DNA of 18,434 nt from positions 1-18,434 of the forward strand of contig JAPLJY010000071.1 in NCBI GenBank assembly GCA_026388345.1. The letters run 5' to 3'. The notes under the pieces were generated by a model. That model saw only the letters and a program-made list of their open reading frames with translations, did not search any database and had not been told where the DNA came from. The number at the start of each line of letters is the position of its first letter. Positions within the stretch are counted from its first letter, which is position 1. Below, piece after piece: positions 1 to 15,150 of this stretch. The stretch comes from Deltaproteobacteria bacterium (GTDB lineage Bacteria > Desulfobacterota > Syntrophia > Syntrophales > UBA5619). The translations under genes and the position numbers were made by a program.

Positions 1-981
<981 letters not shown>

Positions 982-6030: not shown

Positions 6031-7188
6031 TCAACCGCCTGTTCCCCGCCGGAGTCCTTGCCGGTCCTTTCCCGGTTCATAAACGCAGAACGGTTCCTCG
6101 GCGAGGTAGTCCCCCGTCGTCTCGTAGGCCCGTGCCCGGCAGCCGCCGCAGACCCGGATGAATTCGCAGCGGCCGCATTTACCTTTGTAACGGCCGAGGT
6201 CCCGGAGATCCTGAAAAATGGCGGATTCGTTCCAGATCTCCGCAAAGCCCCGATCGGTGATCCGGCCGCAGTCGAGCTCCAGGTAGCCGCAGGGCTGAAC
6301 CTGTCCCCGGTGGGAGATGAAACAGAAGGCGCTCCCCCCGAGGCAGCCGCGGGTCATCGCATGGAGCGGCTGTCCCCCCTCCCCCGCCGTCGGCGGATGA
6401 CCGGCCGACGCGCTGGCGGTCGCCGGTCTGGTCGCCTTTCCGGCCTCCCCGTGTCGTTCCTTGCGCCGCTGGTGGAAAATCCGGTAGTAATGCGGCGCGC
6501 AGGTCGCCTTGAGCTGAATCGCGCAGGAGAGTCCCTCCTCATAAAACCAGTTCAGCGTCTCCTCGTAATCCAGCGGCGTGATTGCCTGATCGGCCATCTC
6601 CTTGGCCCGCCCCGTGGGGACGAGCAGGAAGATGTGGTGCGCGGCGGCCCCGAGGCGGTGGGCGAGATCGTGGATCTCCCGGATCTGCGCAAGGTTCGCC
6701 TGGGTGATTGTCGTGTTGATCTGGAACTCCAGGCCCGCCTGCCTCATCGCCGCAATCCCCGCCATCGCGCCTGCGAAGGCGCCGGGCACGCCGCGGAAGG
6801 CATCGTGACTTTCCGCTTCCGGGCCGTCGATGCTGATGCTGACCCGCCGGATCCCCGACCGGATCAGTTTCGCCGCGACCTCCCCGGTCATCAGGGTCCC
6901 GTTCGTCGCGAGGACCATCCGGAGCCCGTTTTGGTCCCCATAGGCGGCGATCTCATAGATGTCGGGGCGCAGCAGCGGTTCGCCGCCCGTCAGGATGATG
7001 ACCGGTTTGCCCACGGCCGCGATCTGATCCAGCAGTTGCCGGCATTTGTTCGTATCCAGCTCCCCCTCGTAGGGTCCGCGGACAGCCGAGGCGCGGCAAT
7101 GGCCGCAGGCGAGGTTGCAGCTCCGCGTCACCTCCCAGGCGACCATCCGGAGTGTGTGGGGCAAAATCCGGGATTTTTTTCCGATCAT
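6031..7188 (-). CDS. ahbD: AhbD heme b synthase (radical SAM/SPASM)
   Basis: AhbD oxidatively decarboxylates the two propionates of iron-coproporphyrin III to vinyls, giving heme b. The 385-residue product starts at ATG 7188 (MIGKKSRILPHTLRMVAWEV). The frame stays open to 7257, but the extra codons (MDSRFRGND...) are a translation of the intergenic hairpin repeat, so I excluded them. The radical SAM motif CNLACGHC has Cys24, Cys28 and Cys31; GGEP follows in ILTGGEPLLRPD. The C-terminal SPASM-like region has the AhbD-typical TRGCLGGSAFCFISHRG, QPCGYLELDCG and the cluster CGRCEFIRVCGGCRARAYE. A low-complexity Ala/Pro/Gly-rich insert lies at about 255-280. The ribosome binding site is weak, possibly because a repeat now forms the leader. 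The nearest relatives are AhbC and other NirJ-like proteins; the QPCGYL segment separates it from AhbC. Confidence 0.9.
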   Translation of the reverse strand: MIGKKSRILPHTLRMVAWEVTRSCNLACGHCRASAVRGPYEGELDTNKCRQLLDQIAAVGKPVIILTGGEPLLRPDIYEIAAYGDQNGLRMVLATNGTLMTGEVAAKLIRSGIRRVSISIDGPEAESHDAFRGVPGAFAGAMAGIAAMRQAGLEFQINTTITQANLAQIREIHDLAHRLGAAAHHIFLLVPTGRAKEMADQAITPLDYEETLNWFYEEGLSCAIQLKATCAPHYYRIFHQRRKERHGEAGKATRPATASASAGHPPTAGEGGQPLHAMTRGCLGGSAFCFISHRGQVQPCGYLELDCGRITDRGFAEIWNESAIFQDLRDLGRYKGKCGRCEFIRVCGGCRARAYETTGDYLAEEPFCVYEPGKDRQGLRRGTGG

Positions 7189-7238
7189 CTCTTTGTCATT
7201 CCCGCTCTTTTTTGTCTCGATCTCTTTGTCATTCCCGC
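7188..7238. repeat. 18-bp direct repeat in the ahbD leader
   Basis: TCTCTTTGTCATTCCCGC occurs at 7188-7205 and again at 7221-7238, a perfect 18-bp match offset by 33 bases. The right copy continues into the full hairpin repeat (7228-7252). The left copy stops after the first half of the hairpin. The ahbD start codon (7186-7188) touches the left copy, so a partial duplication of the repeat now forms the translation leader of ahbD. Confidence 0.85.
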
Positions 7239-7252
7239 GAAAGCGGGAATCC
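7228..7252. repeat. Dispersed hairpin repeat, copy B (left end of GIY-YIG cassette)
   Basis: Identical over 25 bases to copy A at 598-622. It forms the left boundary of the GIY-YIG cassette, supplying the gene's last codons (PLSRE) and its TGA stop at 7229-7231. An inverted partner lies at 7550-7574. Confidence 0.85.
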
Positions 7253-7540
7253 ATCAACGATCACAGAATACAGATCTTTCCAATCCGGGTTATTCTTTTC
7301 AATAAGATCGATCTTCCACTGTCTTTTCCATTTCTTTATATTCTTTTCTCTTTGGATTGCAGCACGAATATCTTCACATGCTTCAAAGTAGACGAGATTC
7401 TTTACACGGTATTTTTTTGTAAAACCACCCACAAGATTATTCTTGTGCTCGTAAACCCTCCTAATCAGATCATTCGTTACTCCAACATACAGGGTGCCAT
7501 TCTTTTTACTTGCCAGAATATAGACATAATATTGTTGCAT
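7229..7540 (-). CDS. Single-domain GIY-YIG nuclease family protein in a repeat-bounded cassette
   Basis: The 103-residue product starts at ATG 7540. The N-terminal QYYVYILASKKNGTLYVGVT carries the GIY (YVYIL) and YIG (LYVGV) strands. Then come the Arg-rich segment NDLIRRVYEHK and the helix AAIQREKNIKKWKRQ with the Glu typically needed for metal binding. The ending KIDLIEKNNPDWKDLY is typical of the roughly 100-residue single-domain (YhbQ/UPF0213-like) group. Members have the UvrC/homing-endonuclease nuclease fold, but the cellular role of this small group is poorly defined. The gene is AT-rich compared with hemB and ahbD on either side. Its last codons and stop lie inside hairpin repeat B, and its start is 10 bases from inverted copy C. 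No strong ribosome binding site is visible. It probably arrived as a unit with its flanking repeats. Confidence 0.85.
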   Translation of the reverse strand: MQQYYVYILASKKNGTLYVGVTNDLIRRVYEHKNNLVGGFTKKYRVKNLVYFEACEDIRAAIQREKNIKKWKRQWKIDLIEKNNPDWKDLYSVIVDGFPLSRE

Positions 7541-7549
7541 TGCTTCATT

Positions 7550-7574
7550 GGATTCCTGCTTTCGCAGGAATGAC
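7550..7574. repeat. Dispersed hairpin repeat, copy C (inverted, right end of GIY-YIG cassette)
   Basis: The inverse of copies A and B except for one stem base pair: ATTCCTGC pairs with GCAGGAAT instead of ATTCCCGC with GCGGGAAT. Both strands of the stem changed together, so the hairpin is preserved. It lies 11 bases beyond the hemB stop. Confidence 0.85.
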
Positions 7575-7585
7575 CATAAAAGAAT

Positions 7586-8560
7586 CTATTTTCCTAAAAT
7601 TTGCGCCGCCTCGGGGGCAAAATAGGTGATGATCATGTCCGCCCCGGCGCGCCGGATCGCCGTCAGGGATTCCAGCATCGCCCGTTCCCCGTCGATCCAC
7701 CCCATCTGCGCCGCCGCCTTGACCATCGCGAATTCGCCGCTGACGTTGTAGGCAGCAAGGGGCAGATCGAACTCCTCCTTTGCCCGGCGGATGACATCCA
7801 GATAGGCCAGGGCGGGCTTCACCATGATGATGTCCGCCCCCTCCTGAACGTCGAGGGTGATCTCCCGCATGGCCTCGTCGCTGTTGGCCGGATCCATCTG
7901 GTATGCCCTCCGGTCGCCGAAGGCCGGGGCGCTCTCCGCCGCCTCCCGGAACGGGCCGTAGAAGCAGGAGGCGTACTTTGCCGAGTAGGCCATGATCGGA
8001 ACGGCATCGAAGCCTGCCTCGTCGAGCCCCTCGCGGAGCGCTCCGATCTGGCCGTCCATCATTGCGGACGGGGCGACCATGTCCGCGCCCGCCCTGGCAT
8101 GGGATACGGCCTGCTCCGCCAGGACCTCCAGGGTCAAGTCGTTTGCCACCTCGCCCTTCTCGATCATCCCGCAGTGGCCATGACTCATATACTCGCAAAG
8201 ACAGACGTCGGTGATGACGAGGATGTCGGGAACTTTTTCCTTGATCTCCCGGACCGCCCGCTGGATGACCCCGTCCTTCGCGAGCGCCCCGGTGGCGATC
8301 TCGTCTTTCTTCTCGGGGATGCCGAAGAGCAGGACCGCAGGGATCCCCAGCTCCTTCATCCGCGCCGCCTCCCGGACGATGTGATCGACCGACATCTGAA
8401 AGTTCCCCGGCATGGAGGTGATCGGTTTCTTTACTTTCGCACCCGGCACCACGAACAGAGGATAGATCAAGTTGTCCACCGAGAGCCTCGTCTCCCGGAT
8501 CATCCTCCGGAAATTCTCGTTCTTCCTCAGCCTCCGCGGCCGGTAATCAGGAAATTGCAT
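7586..8560 (-). CDS. hemB: Porphobilinogen synthase (delta-aminolevulinic acid dehydratase)
   Basis: HemB condenses two 5-aminolevulinate molecules into porphobilinogen in the cytoplasm. The 324-residue product starts at ATG 8560, six bases after a perfect AAGGAGG. The longer open frame to 8659 is leader. The zinc-binding cysteines are present in [14 protein letters not shown] (Cys120, Cys122, Cys130). The Schiff-base lysines are in YSAKYAS (Lys195) and [10 protein letters not shown] (Lys248). The [11 protein letters not shown] segment (about 215-224) is the usual phosphate and allosteric-region motif. The length is standard. It is separated from its pathway neighbours by the AT-rich accessory block upstream and the GIY-YIG cassette downstream. 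The gap of about 170 bases before it is AT-rich and could hold its own promoter, though I cannot name clear -35 and -10 boxes. Confidence 0.97.
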
Positions 8561-8730: not shown

Positions 8731-9291
8731 TTACAATTTATCATGAAAATCCTTTGGAGAAATAATCTTCATCTTCTCATCGCTCAATTGGGCTGAAAGA
8801 GTCTTATTACGGAGAAGTTTGCCATCCATAGTAAGAAAAATGTCTGCTCCGGCTTTTATTGCTGAATCAATATGAATAAAATCACCAAATTTTTCACGCC
8901 TTATTTTTTTTATATCATTTGCACACTTGATCCTTTTCGCGACAATTTTTCGTGCACCAGATGATTGTGCTTTCCCAATCTCCGGAAAGTTTTCGATTGG
9001 CAGTTCTTGATCATGATCTACCATGCAAATACTAATACCAAAAGATGGGACTTTTTTAACATTGTATTTACTTATAAATTGATCAATTGATCTTTCTTTA
9101 TCAGAAGATCTTTCGAGATCATTCATTGCTGAAATCATAAATTCGACACTTAATTCAGAAGCCTTATCTAAAATTTTGCCTATAGCATGTAAATTCTCAA
9201 GATTGGATTTTGTATAACCCACAGATGAACATCCTCTTATTTTAAATTTTATCCATTCGTCAATAATACATTGATCTAAATAAATCTTCAT
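8731..9291 (-). CDS. PIN-like domain protein (putative ribonuclease)
   Basis: A 186-residue AT-rich gene. The start MKIYLDQCIIDEW carries the first PIN acidic residue (Asp6). The ending KFGDFIHIDSAIKAGADIFL, then TMDGKLLRN and MKIISPKDF, matches the usual PIN C-terminus 'aDalHlAtAlxxgadyflTxDkxLl...ikvvsPxef', with Asp137, His140 and Asp156. Glu60 in SAMNDLE is a candidate middle acid. PIN domains are usually metal-dependent ribonucleases and often toxins. No small antitoxin gene is adjacent. Instead the gene begins 5 bases after the stop of a TPR-protein gene, with no clear ribosome binding site, which suggests translational coupling. The PIN assignment is by motif; the target RNA and any inhibitor are unknown. 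Confidence 0.7.
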   Translation of the reverse strand: MKIYLDQCIIDEWIKFKIRGCSSVGYTKSNLENLHAIGKILDKASELSVEFMISAMNDLERSSDKERSIDQFISKYNVKKVPSFGISICMVDHDQELPIENFPEIGKAQSSGARKIVAKRIKCANDIKKIRREKFGDFIHIDSAIKAGADIFLTMDGKLLRNKTLSAQLSDEKMKIISPKDFHDKL

Positions 9292-9296
9292 TTGAA

Positions 9297-10541
9297 CTAC
9301 TTAATCCTTATCTTTCTTAATAAATCTGGCGCATTCTTGTCACCCATTCGTGCTGCTGTTTCCAAGTCATCAATTGCTTTGTCATGTTGATTTAAATTCT
9401 CATATATATCAGATCGCAAGCAGTATGTATTAGTATCTGTCGGATTAAGTTCAATAGCCTTGCTATAATCTATCAATGCCTCTTTCAATGCTTCTTCGTC
9501 ACAACACACAGCTTTATATTTATAACCTTTCGCGTGATAAAGAAGTCCTCTTCCTGTGTATGCCTGGGCATTTGATGGATCTAACTCGATAGCCTTATTA
9601 AAATCCTCAAATGCTTTATCTCTTAATTGAAGAATGTGATTCATCTTTCCTCGCTGTACATATGAACCTGCCCATTGAGGATCGAGTTCGATTGCTTTAT
9701 TTATATCTTTAAGGGAGTAATTAAAATTGACTGTTGGATCAATATTGTTCAAGGATAACTGGAATCTACAGGCACTTCGACCAATGTATGCACCGGCATG
9801 GTGTGGATCTAATTCAATAACCTTATCAAAATCGCTTATGGCACCGCCGTAATTATTTAAAAATTTTGCATAGATAGTTCCACGATTGAAGTATGAGGTT
9901 GGCTCGAAAGGGAGAAGTTCTATAGTTTTGCTAAAAAAGAATATTGCCTCTTCATAATTGCCCGATATGGAAGATGCGTATCCTTTCTCAAACAAGTCTG
10001 TAGCGCTCATCTCCTTCACGGCTTTATTATATCTGTCAATCTTCATCTTATCTGTTTTTGTCAATTCTAATTCATTACTCAACCTCTTGATCTCGTTCGA
10101 AAGTTCCTCTGCTTTTTTTCTAATATCCTCTAATTCTTTTGTTTTTTCACGGTCTTTTCTTAAATTATCAAGGGCCGCTATAACACCCTTAGGGTCAGCG
10201 CTTATCTTCGCTCTCAAGTGATATTTCAGATTATTCCCATCCCAGCTTTCATCAACTATTTCGGTTCTAACGATACCTGCCGTCAATATGACAATCTGGT
10301 CTTTAGTTAGTCGAAAATTTTTCACCTCTGTCTTACTCTCAAGATAAGTCCCAAGTTCCTCTAACAGAATTCGCTTAACTTGCTCTAACGCCAATGTCCT
10401 GTAGGATACCTTGCTATCATATTCGCTTGCCTGATAGGTGTATTCCTTGATGAAGGTTTTGATTTCAGCAAATGTGAGAACGGGAATAAATAACAGAAAC
10501 AAAAAAGAAAAAAGGACGACTCTTGCCAGTGTTGATGCCAT
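9297..10541 (-). CDS. Exported coiled-coil TPR-repeat protein
   Basis: The 414-residue product starts at ATG 10541, seven bases after AAGGAG. Residues 1-25 are a signal peptide (ARVVLFSFLFLLFIPVLTFA). Residues about 26-125 form an alpha/beta region I do not recognise. Residues about 126-185 are a charged coiled coil (KTKELEDIRKKAEELSNEIK...). From about 190 to the end there are five or more tetratricopeptide repeats of the form 'YEEAIxxFxKxIELxPxxxxxYxxRG', including KVIELDPHHAGAYIGRSA and KAIELDPSNAQAYTGRG. The architecture points to protein-protein scaffolding in the periplasm or envelope. It is AT-rich like the PIN gene and unlike the heme genes on both sides, so it was probably acquired. 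No lipobox is seen. Its specific role is unknown. Confidence 0.85.
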   Translation of the reverse strand: MASTLARVVLFSFLFLLFIPVLTFAEIKTFIKEYTYQASEYDSKVSYRTLALEQVKRILLEELGTYLESKTEVKNFRLTKDQIVILTAGIVRTEIVDESWDGNNLKYHLRAKISADPKGVIAALDNLRKDREKTKELEDIRKKAEELSNEIKRLSNELELTKTDKMKIDRYNKAVKEMSATDLFEKGYASSISGNYEEAIFFFSKTIELLPFEPTSYFNRGTIYAKFLNNYGGAISDFDKVIELDPHHAGAYIGRSACRFQLSLNNIDPTVNFNYSLKDINKAIELDPQWAGSYVQRGKMNHILQLRDKAFEDFNKAIELDPSNAQAYTGRGLLYHAKGYKYKAVCCDEEALKEALIDYSKAIELNPTDTNTYCLRSDIYENLNQHDKAIDDLETAARMGDKNAPDLLRKIRIK

Positions 10542-10687
10542 AGATTATCTCCTTTTTATAAACCGATGGCATTTTATACATCAACCCTGAATCATCTGCA
10601 ATGTATGTTATCGATTTCCGATTGAAAGGACGCAAGAAATTGCCGGCTTTGGGGAAAAACATTTCAGAGGAAGTTGTCAGGGTAATA

Positions 10688-10900
10688 TTATAAATCGTTT
10701 GGCTCCAAACCAGTATGCTTCGCTATTCTGGTGAGCATGCGGGGTCCAATTTCTTCTCCGTCATGAAAAGCAAATACAAAATCCTGGTATCCCGGACGAG
10801 ACAAGGTACGGTGTGATCCGGACTGACGCTTGATAATCCATCCGATAGAAATAAGTGCCGAAAGTAACTTTTTGGCTTTGACAGATCGCCACTGGGTCAT
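10688..10900 (-). CDS. hicA: HicA-family mRNA interferase toxin
   Basis: The 70-residue product starts at ATG 10900, overlapping the hicB stop by four bases (ATGA), so its translation is coupled to the antitoxin. It has the HicA double-stranded-RNA-binding-like pattern: KLLSALISIGWIIKRQSGSH (GW followed by the catalytic SGSH, His30) and a C-terminal LTRIAKHTGLE helix. HicA toxins cleave mRNA on the ribosome under stress when HicB is degraded. An in-frame codon at 10939 lies inside hicB and is less likely as a start. All expected residues are visible, so the toxin looks intact. Confidence 0.88.
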   Translation of the reverse strand: MTQWRSVKAKKLLSALISIGWIIKRQSGSHRTLSRPGYQDFVFAFHDGEEIGPRMLTRIAKHTGLEPNDL

Positions 10901-11103
10901 ACGGCCGCAAATGCAATGCTGATTGGCATCGGACCACACTCTGCCATTTCAAGGCGTTCTGCCAGAACACGTAAAGCAAGAGTCTCGGCTTTCTTCATTG
11001 CCTCATCGGAAGTTGTTCCGTACGCCATAACTCCATGTAACTCAGGTACTTCGGCAATCCAACGGCCATCTTCTTCACGTTCGTATTCGATGTTATAATG
11101 CAT
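10897..11103 (-). CDS. hicB: HicB-family antitoxin, short form
   Basis: The 68-residue product starts at ATG 11103, six bases after GGAGG. The frame is open to 11145, but that codon has no ribosome binding site. The sequence MHYNIEYEREEDGRWIAEVP, then ELHGVMAYGTTSDEAMKKAE and ALRVLAERL, is the partial RNase-H-like HicB fold. There is no C-terminal ribbon-helix-helix or helix-turn-helix DNA-binding domain, so it is the short class, and autoregulation through this protein alone is uncertain. It precedes hicA with an ATGA overlap (antitoxin first). The pair lies 78 bases after the ahbC stop in the same orientation, so read-through from the heme operon is possible. Confidence 0.88.
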   Translation of the reverse strand: MHYNIEYEREEDGRWIAEVPELHGVMAYGTTSDEAMKKAETLALRVLAERLEMAECGPMPISIAFAAV

Positions 11104-11144
11104 TGCCAACCTCCACATAGGTCGCGATTGTGATCTATGATACA

Positions 11145-11160
11145 TTATTTTCGAGAATAA
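11145..11160. promoter_or_regulatory. Candidate operator palindrome upstream of hicBA
   Basis: TTATTTTCGAGAATAA is a palindrome with one mismatched pair, about 40 bases upstream of the hicB ATG. A weak minus-strand -10-like TATCAT lies just downstream of it (about 11137-11142). The position between promoter elements suits an autoregulatory operator, but this is inferred from symmetry and location only. Confidence 0.3.
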
Positions 11161-13940: not shown

Positions 13941-14104
13941 GAAATCTGATCCCGGAAGCGCGCATTGGAGATTTCTCGGGGTTCCCTGACCCCGCAGCAT
14001 AGTGTCCGCAAAGACGACTGTTTGAGCGCGAAGCGCGAGTTTCGTCTTTGCAGCTTTGGAATAGGGGGACACGATGCGGCATCGTGTCCCCCTATTCCAA
14101 AGCT
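13941..14104. repeat. Stacked inverted repeats in the hemC/cobA-hemD gap
   Basis: Three hairpin-forming units follow one another. The first has 7-bp arms GAAATCT/AGATTTC (13941-13947, 13969-13975). The second has 10-bp arms GCAAAGACGA/TCGTCTTTGC (14008-14017, 14042-14051) with an inner GCGCGAAGCGC hairpin. The third is a perfect 53-bp palindrome (14052-14104, arms 26 bp, centre 14078) whose core arm is GGGGACACGATGC. That 13-base arm and its inverse recur at 15120-15150. No T-run follows on either strand, so these look like REP-type elements more than terminators. There is no gene in this 241-base gap. Confidence 0.85.
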
Positions 14105-15119: not shown

Positions 15120-15150
15120 TTGGGGACACGATGCGGCATCGTGTCCCCAA
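15120..15150. repeat. 31-bp perfect palindrome, second copy of the GGGGACACGATGC element
   Basis: The arms at 15120-15134 and 15136-15150 are exact inverse complements around G15135. The 27-bp core is identical to the centre of the 53-bp palindrome at 14052-14104. It lies in the hemA-hemC gap just upstream of hemC, so hemC is bracketed by two copies about 1 kb apart. Confidence 0.85.

Follow-up and report, generated by a model that had tools for sequence, protein, structure and literature searches.

CGTC-tagged REPs were surveyed by Di Nocera, De Gregorio and Rocco in 2013 (PMC3733652). According to that survey, these repeats combine a YGTC tag, an 8-9 bp stem that opens with AT, a loop of 4-5 bases and a CCA tail. 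They were reported from five phyla, the dRS3 repeats of Neisseria are counted among them, and head-to-head dimers predominate. The survey found no association of CGTC repeats with transposase genes, and its text does not contain the term 'GIY-YIG' (PMC3733652).

RAYT (TnpA-REP) REPtrons are the nearest system with a gene partner. Here, a small nuclease gene lies between inverted tagged hairpins, and solo hairpins and dimers are dispersed (PMC3733652). REPINs and RAYTs likewise form repeat-specific pairs within one genome (PMC8266576). The RAYT protein is an HUH tyrosine transposase (Y1_Tnp), and the tag of its hairpins is GTAG.

Other systems share single features with the locus described here. 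IS200/IS605 elements produce no target duplication and carry hairpins near their ends that are direct, not inverted. The GIY-YIG superfamily is defined by a catalytic Y, R, E and N set, and its enzymes are known as hydrolytic nucleases and not as strand-transferring transposases. Its members include free-standing homing endonucleases, the single-domain UPF0213/COG2827 proteins, and Slx1 and UvrC-type nucleases, which are housekeeping, multi-domain enzymes; Slx1 processes branched DNA.

We analyzed a GIY-YIG gene enclosed by two hairpins in an 18,434-nucleotide stretch of DNA (the window). The relevant features are as follows.

598..622, (+) strand: solo hairpin of the same class, GTCATTCCCGCGAAAGCGGGAATCC
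6031..7188, (-) strand: ahbD-like radical SAM gene, after the unit
7187..7205, (+) strand: ATCTCTTTGTCATTCCCGC, part of the left flank plus the first hairpin half, a partial copy (family D17)
7228..7574, (-) strand: whole unit of hairpin, GIY-YIG gene and inverted hairpin, 347 bp, tags pointing outward (head-to-head)
7228..7252, (+) strand: left hairpin (downstream on the gene strand), GTC-ATTCCCGC-GAAA-GCGGGAAT-CC
7229..7540, (-) strand: single-domain GIY-YIG nuclease gene, 103 aa, PF01541
7550..7574, (-) strand: right hairpin (upstream on the gene strand), GTC-ATTCCTGC-GAAA-GCAGGAAT-CC
7586..8560, (-) strand: hemB, the gene before the unit on the shared strand

The names hemB and ahbD-like for 7586..8560 and 6031..7188 are putative and follow the first reading of the sequence. 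The left hairpin (7228-7252) reads GTCATTCCCGCGAAAGCGGGAATCC, and 7550-7574 is the inverse of GTCATTCCTGCGAAAGCAGGAATCC. The two are identical at 23 of 25 positions, and their mismatches form one exchanged base pair, C-G in one and T-A in the other, so the stem is preserved. These coordinates and this match confirm the original prediction of a 347-bp unit with 25-bp inverted hairpin ends, and the copy said to stand alone at 598 was found at 598-622. The right hairpin lies 9 bp from the start codon, or 11 bp if its CC tail is not counted. As had also been proposed, the left repeat supplies the final codons and the stop: TGA is read from the TCA within that hairpin's GTCAT, and the last residues are encoded there as well. 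The unit is flanked by the hemB stop (7586) and the likely ahbD ATG (7188). Its placement between hemB and ahbD therefore stands, although the phrase 'between the ends' of these genes was loose because both read leftwards. ATCTCTTTGTCATTCCCGC recurs at 7220-7238 as a direct repeat spaced 33 bp, within window 7187-7238 and beside the unit. We agree that no target-site duplication is visible around the window unit.

Several other features of the window were recorded. A perfect hairpin with a 10-bp stem, AACCACGGGGGTGATCCCCGTGGTT, lies at 667-691 near the solo GTC hairpin. Positions 8731-11145, between hemB and the next radical SAM gene, hold a HicA/HicB-like pair (HicA over the Pfam cut-off, the HicB-like protein below it), a TPR protein and an ORF with no Pfam match. 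Two long perfect hairpins around GGGGACACGATGC (14052-14104 and 15120-15150) flank hemC. They start with GGGGACA, reminiscent of GGGGWSAS, which the 2013 survey gives as a motif of tyrosine-transposase terminal repeats (PMC3733652).

The window hairpin belongs to a known repeat family, the CGTC-tagged REPs, and is dRS3-like. Both hairpins have 8-bp stems (ATTCCCGC, ATTCCTGC) that open with AT, the loop GAAA and the tail CCA. The base preceding GTC is T in the left hairpin and G in the right one, which is the only deviation from the described type. The repeats are dispersed, mostly as head-to-head dimers. In the nearest genome (G001; genomes, contigs and loci are cited by our handles G, C and L), 82 matches to the hairpin pattern were found, with a few sites counted on both strands, against 0 for a reversed-pattern control, so the hairpins exceed chance. 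Fourteen head-to-head pairs in a 45-bp register were picked from this list of matches. Among pairs less than 100 bp apart in the loci of close homologues of the gene (clade A, defined below), 129 were head-to-head, 86 tail-to-tail and 64 head-to-tail. The stem sequence differs among lineages, with the GTC tag and the outer AT pairs retained. One subgroup of units carries longer, bulged GTC hairpins with a CT tail, which appear to belong to the same system. The suggestion that this unit is a new element needs correction in one respect, since the repeat itself was already known.

The protein is a GIY-YIG nuclease by domain, residues and predicted fold. The 103-aa ORF matches PF01541 (GIY-YIG) with E 8.5e-18 and no other Pfam family. 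GIY and YIG motifs plus Y, R, E and N place it in the superfamily. Residues Y7, Y18, R28, H32, E65 and N84, which we take to be its catalytic set, are all present, and 176 of 192 clade A proteins retain all six. This conservation suggests that the clade A enzyme is likely under selection. The AlphaFold2 model (pLDDT 91.6) has 1ZG2, a small GIY-YIG protein, and Slx1 as its nearest solved folds. Foldseek matches to Slx1 were the stronger (probability 1.0 for the top ones, E about 0.01-0.03) and those to the UvrC N-domain the weaker (E about 0.6-1). The best solved relative, 1ZG2, represents UPF0213/COG2827, whose members are single-domain like the unit protein. The protein also gave a weak match to a PHROG of homing-endonuclease type and a TIGR01453 match under that family's cut-off. 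At E<=1e-3, 7,996 of 7,998 scored proteins were homologues, a count in which the two clades defined below are not separated.

The layout had been likened to the pairing of REPs with RAYTs, with a GIY-YIG protein in place of the transposase, and this comparison is apt. As in a RAYT REPtron, the gene is flanked by inverted copies of a genome-dispersed hairpin. It differs in that the protein matches PF01541 and not Y1_Tnp, and the tag is GTC (YGTC type) and not GTAG. The unit shares hairpins near its ends with IS200/IS605 elements and differs from them in its inverted hairpins, its length of about 350 bp and its lack of an HUH transposase and of TnpB.

We examined the flanks of related genes for outward-pointing hairpins. 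A homologue search gave matches in 13 of 41 genomes near the window and in 187 of 395 genomes of the phylum. Close homologues (E below about 1e-21) are called clade A and distant ones (here 1e-13 to 1e-6) clade B. The flank sample held 112 clade A loci, including the window, and 38 clade B loci. Loci with less than 150 bp on either side were excluded (1 of 112 clade A, 2 of 38 clade B, 5 of 80 from the named collection below and 6 of 30 Y1_Tnp loci), so that 111 clade A loci were usable; they represent the window and 82 genomes, with several from one genome. Partial or contig-edge clade A matches were kept out of the counts (L015, L027, G269:C58, G374:C71, G156:C178 and others), as were both G123:C254 matches, both G197:C156 matches, G270:C28, G302:C47 and G217:C7:84233. 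Among the matches listed, 8 clade B rows from the near-window search and 30 from the phylum search were left out, including the fairly full G297:C253, G232:C13 and G124:C51 besides partial ones.

A fixed-sequence hairpin detector was discarded; it found few flanking hairpins because stems differ among lineages. With a strict structural detector, 41 of 111 clade A loci had outward hairpins on both sides within 250 bp. A relaxed detector specifies the GTC tag, a 5-bp outer stem ATNNN/NNNAT and a C after it, and covers both short and bulged hairpins; its definition was drawn up after inspecting clade A flanks, and controls were scored with the same definition. It found hairpins on both sides at 63 of 111 clade A loci, on one side at 37 and on neither at 11. 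None of 36 clade B genes had a hairpin on either side, which separates the unit protein from its distant relatives in UPF0213/COG2827. Other ORFs of the clade A loci (mechanical ORFs of at least 100 aa, not annotated genes) had hairpins on both sides in 1 of 292 cases and on one side in 41 of 292; with the two detectors combined, the two-sided count was 2 of 292. Shuffled flanks, which preserve single-base content only, gave 0 of 2240. Fisher tests on the two-sided clade A count gave p 3e-11 against clade B and 1e-41 against same-locus ORFs. Arrays of hairpins also placed inward-pointing ones on both sides of the gene, at 18 of 111 clade A loci. The combined detectors were used as well for the Y1_Tnp genes, the named collection and the head-to-head pair counts below. 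A RAYT explanation was ruled out on the Y1_Tnp (RAYT-type) genes of the phylum: GTC hairpins flanked 0 of 24 on both sides and 3 of 24 on one side.

The same packaging was found in other phyla. A collection of named bacterial and archaeal species yielded at least 589 relatives, of which the best 80 were taken. The titles of these 80 include Nitrospirae, the Bacteroidota isolates Kordia, Hanstruepera and Winogradskyella, Alpha-, Beta-, Gamma- and Deltaproteobacteria, Planctomycetes, Chloroflexi, Omnitrophota and several candidate phyla. MAGs account for many of the 80, for which reason individual taxon names call for caution. Outward hairpins stood on both sides at 50 of 75 usable loci from these best 80, on one side at 20 and on neither at 5. 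Named isolates with a gene packaged on both sides include Ectothiorhodospira lacustris (L228) and Kordia periserrulae (L219). Control ORFs in this set gave 10 of 432 on both sides and 46 of 432 on one side (Fisher p 5e-40 for both-sided). Three of the 10 two-sided controls are further GIY-YIG units, without which the count is 7 of 429. Inward hairpins occurred on both sides at 15 of 75 loci. These counts include three of the 80 loci that duplicate phylum-set loci exactly.

These results bear out the expectation that inverted hairpins lie beside single-domain GIY-YIG genes more often than beside other genes (63/111 and 50/75 against 1/292 and 10/432). Two outcomes named in advance as fatal to the link did not occur: clade A homologues at unrelated loci do carry flanking hairpins, and hairpins are not equally common beside all genes, with two-sided packaging rare in the control ORFs and absent from the Y1 genes. 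The gene and the hairpins could still have met by chance, either by accumulating in the same permissive intergenic sites or because a few loci share descent. The loci are indeed interrelated, with several from one genome and the three duplicates just mentioned, and one-sided hairpins are not rare beside other ORFs (41/292; 46/432). However, two-sided counts are near zero in every control (same-locus ORFs, Y1 transposases, clade B and shuffles), and the pattern recurs in a separately drawn, multi-phylum set. The regular spacing of 94 units and the head-to-head pair counts, both given below, contradict it further. We consider coincidence or shared descent extremely improbable as an explanation.

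Head-to-head pairs at the spacing of a unit also lead back to the gene. On the 648,645-bp contig G384:C3, the relaxed detector alone found 70 hairpins against 9 in the reversed sequence. Of four head-to-head pairs there with a spacing of 200-600 bp, one includes a doubtful hairpin; the other three, each of another stem class, hold the three clade A genes listed for the contig. Across 1.44 Mb of clade A loci, 6 of 9 head-to-head pairs at this spacing, with the query's own pair excluded, held a clade A gene, though some of the six may be queries of a neighbouring locus. The corresponding counts were 0 of 15 for tail-to-tail and 3 of 9 for head-to-tail pairs. Together, the three of four pairs on G384:C3 and the 6/9 against 0/15 indicate that head-to-head packaging is nearly specific to clade A genes.

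The ends of the units were defined in 94 cases, including the window, in which neither hairpin was more than 80 bp from the gene; the detector used requires GTC. Unit length has a median of 366 bp and a range of 342-481 bp. Between the upstream hairpin and the start codon there are most often 12-16 bp. At the other end, the most frequent arrangements are a hairpin that starts 4-8 bp past the stop and one that, as in the window, overlaps the gene and supplies the stop. The base preceding GTC is T or C in 91-95% of the 94 units. When non-orthologous units from different genomes were compared, in 182 pairs for the left end and 162 for the right, identity fell to about 0.25-0.3 immediately beyond the tag. 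Part of the identity within the hairpin follows from how units were detected, which does not apply to the outer drop. Many BLAST alignments between units likewise stop at the tags, about 37-39 bp upstream of the start codon and 27-29 bp beyond the stop. As exceptions, L187/L207 and L067/L081 align for about 100 bp further, and orthologous loci align for longer still. A target duplication of at least 4 bp was found at none of the 94 units, which sets them apart from conventional insertion sequences and extends the absence noted for the window.

The hairpins might be passive cargo, serving as terminators or RNA-stabilizing ends of a small stress or repair nuclease and spread by ordinary recombination between repeats. 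REPs are generally near gene ends and may be transcribed (PMC3733652), and another study proposes small COG2827 genes as repair genes, one of them with an SOS box in Caulobacter (PMC1839093). Also in favor of this reading, the distant clade B genes live without hairpins. Other genes at the same loci are seldom so packaged, though (1/292 and 2/292, and 7/429 in the named set), and a terminator needs neither an outward layout, nor a conserved unpaired tag, nor an end of homology at that tag. Passive cargo is therefore a poor candidate, if a somewhat better one than coincidence.

The class of the hairpin tracks the clade of the protein in cis and, less strictly, among dispersed hairpins in trans. 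Within units, left and right stems agree at 5.26 of 6 letters, compared with 3.73 when shuffled. On a tree of 92 proteins, 75 rows in four hand-drawn stem classes need 3 changes, the minimum possible; the remaining 17 of the 92, whose stems are mixed or of other kinds, were left out of this test. Shuffling the stem classes on the same tree gave a mean of 28.5 changes and a minimum of 24. Good support is limited to a few branches of this tree (8 of 89 starred), and named loci identical to phylum-set loci were dropped from it. Because a gene and its flanking hairpins are linked DNA, this concordance alone does not prove recognition, and so dispersed copies were counted as well in 41 genomes, which were classed by hand and whose units' own hairpins are included. 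CCGG hairpins account for 0.23-1.0 of all short-stem hairpins in the 10 genomes with CCGG-class units and for 0-0.30 in the 14 with CCYG-class units (Mann-Whitney p 4e-5, with overlapping ranges). The CCYG class is the more numerous in 4 of the 10 CCGG-unit genomes, and four genomes with both kinds of unit were excluded from the comparison. The 13 genomes with bulged-hairpin units have at most 4 short-stem hairpins each. The bulged class was less regular. Three short-stem genomes (G040, G159 and G288) are also rich in GTCATTGCGA hairpins, and of these a bulged unit is known from G159 alone (L117). GTCATTGCGA hairpins are absent from several genomes whose own bulged units are of other types.

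The gene and the hairpins co-occur across genomes, with many exceptions. At least 10 GTCATTCC-type hairpins were present in 38 of 77 genomes with a clade A gene and in 37 of 318 without (p 4e-12), with clade A taken at E<=1e-20 and the lists of clade A and hairpin-rich genomes made by hand. Thus 37 of the 75 genomes with at least 10 hairpins have no clade A gene at that threshold, G333, G404, G366, G407 and G151 among them. This result weighs against our interpretation and is the main one against a strict need for the gene. A PF01541 search of 15 of the 37 gave a match in 14, most of UvrC size. No GTC hairpin stood beside the matches inspected in gene-less genomes (9 of 23), and the UvrC-type genes among the inspected matches show no hairpin packaging. 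The hairpin-rich, gene-less genomes may hold orphan repeats, or the repeats may have another partner there. Loss of the gene after the hairpins had spread, as with orphan REPs, is the likeliest explanation because remnants exist: G001, one of the 37, retains a GIY-YIG gene remnant at hemB-ahbD, and G079, G115, G156, G197 and G260 contain short stretches 49-67% identical to the gene. Several of the assemblies are incomplete.

The heme gene cluster reveals site polymorphism over short distances. The hemB-ahbD junction was read in the window's genus with G026 excluded. In G010 the gene has an internal deletion and is still enclosed by both hairpins, of which the upstream one is altered, and in G001 the 3' gene remnant is accompanied by an altered downstream hairpin. 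After hemB in G003 (L245), at the place of the unit in relatives, stands one fused hairpin that is tagged at both ends, GTC...GAC. It could have been left by a deletion and could give rise to solo hairpins. G005 and G007 perhaps retain half a hairpin, and no hairpin was seen at this junction in G002, G006, G008 and G011. The unit was absent from hemB-ahbD in the eight members of other genera read. Within another genus of the same order, a CCGG-class unit stands at ahbAB|ahbD in G384, at ahbD|hemB in G348 and G170, and at neither junction in G034. The G384 and G348 proteins of this class are neighbours on the tree, and the unit DNA of G384 and G170 is 85% identical. No GTC hairpin is present at ahbAB|ahbD in G348 and G034 or at ahbD|hemB in G384 and G034. 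A CCYG-class unit occupies cobA|hemC in G384, G348 and G034, and G170 keeps only a hairpin there. In the L188 cluster, ahbD|hemB holds a hairpin dimer of another class where relatives hold a unit. The proposed comparison of the hemB-ahbD junction in close relatives thus turned up sites without the unit in the genus, together with decayed copies, and in another genus related units occupy other junctions of the same cluster. Units come and go, and the data do not indicate the route.

Two further arrangements were seen at these clusters. In L342 (G170, ahbD|hemB), an insert that may be a small transposon or MITE, its inverted ends being GAGACTGTGTC/GACACAGTCTC, interrupts the unit's downstream hairpin. 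In addition, DUF559-type genes lie between CCCTCCC...GGGAGGG hairpins, a second pairing of a nuclease with hairpins (L314:8796-9240 in G384, L343/L347 at the ahbD|hemB junction of G034, and L345-L374). Their identity rests on PF04480 in G034 and on resemblance in G384, in which the reading frame continues into ahbD. An inverted repeat (score >=14) between a locus's own two flanks was found in 16 of 29 DUF559 loci (30 fetched), compared with 79 of 841 cross pairings. None of the DUF559 genes at the loci examined had GTC hairpins on both sides.

The polymorphic sites bear on whether the gene is instead a homing parasite. Under that explanation, another enzyme spreads the hairpins, the nuclease cuts head-to-head dimers, and repair templated by an occupied copy inserts its gene between the two hairpins. 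The fold is that of homing endonucleases (the weak PHROG match and the TIGR01453 match below cut-off point the same way), many genomes bear hairpins without the gene, and gene-less head-to-head dimers are common, as in the 129 close pairs and the L188 dimer, albeit of another class, at ahbD|hemB. Spread by its own nuclease would be a logic that the unit shares with free-standing GIY-YIG homing endonucleases. Against this, no other gene stands out within head-to-head pairs 200-600 bp apart (clade A genes occupy 6 of 9), hairpin class tracks protein class, and units occupy junctions that have no GTC hairpin in relatives of the same genus (ahbAB|ahbD, ahbD|hemB). Unlike homing endonuclease genes, the gene does not appear to lie in an intron, in an intein or at an allelic target; it stands alone between hairpin ends, at many unrelated sites and at differing junctions in relatives. 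We view homing into existing dimers as unlikely, though less so than the passive-cargo explanation.

We think it probable that the unit is an autonomous REP-type mobile element made of two inverted CGTC REPs and a single-domain GIY-YIG nuclease specific for its hairpin class. The units consist of these parts, end at the GTC tags, lack target duplications and lie at scattered positions, with occupied and unoccupied junctions among relatives. From these observations we infer that the GIY-YIG protein cleaves and mobilizes the hairpins. The nuclease would recognize the tag together with the folded hairpin, either in a single strand or in a cruciform, and nick at the YGTC/GACR edges. GIY-YIG enzymes are known for hydrolysis and not for strand transfer, and the model therefore requires a repair step by the host, whose replication or repair would bring the freed or copied unit to a new site. 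Gene-less hairpins would be moved in trans. Solo hairpins and head-to-head dimers would be non-autonomous offspring and deletion scars, like the REPs and REPINs of RAYTs.

The repeats and the protein family were each known before. The 2013 survey saw no mobility gene for CGTC-tagged REPs (PMC3733652), and here a GIY-YIG partner is found. Among the best-ranked matches in open-licence literature, we found no published link between GIY-YIG proteins and REPs. Mobile elements are classed by their nuclease, and defining features of RAYT REPtrons and of homing endonucleases are absent here, although we would say that the element works like a REPtron. On balance, we favor the broader proposal that these units form a separate, widespread class of elements that uses a GIY-YIG nuclease as its transposase and is the source of CGTC REPs across phyla, including dRS3. 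The DUF559 genes and their CCCTCCC hairpins raise the possibility that REP families arose several times, each from a different, unrelated small nuclease.

A GIY-YIG partner makes the origin of the CGTC-tagged REPs directly testable. If our model is correct, a gene of about 100 codons with two hairpins would represent a second, enzymatically unrelated solution to the REP/RAYT design. It would also provide a role for many proteins now annotated only as 'GIY-YIG nuclease family protein' or 'putative endonuclease'.
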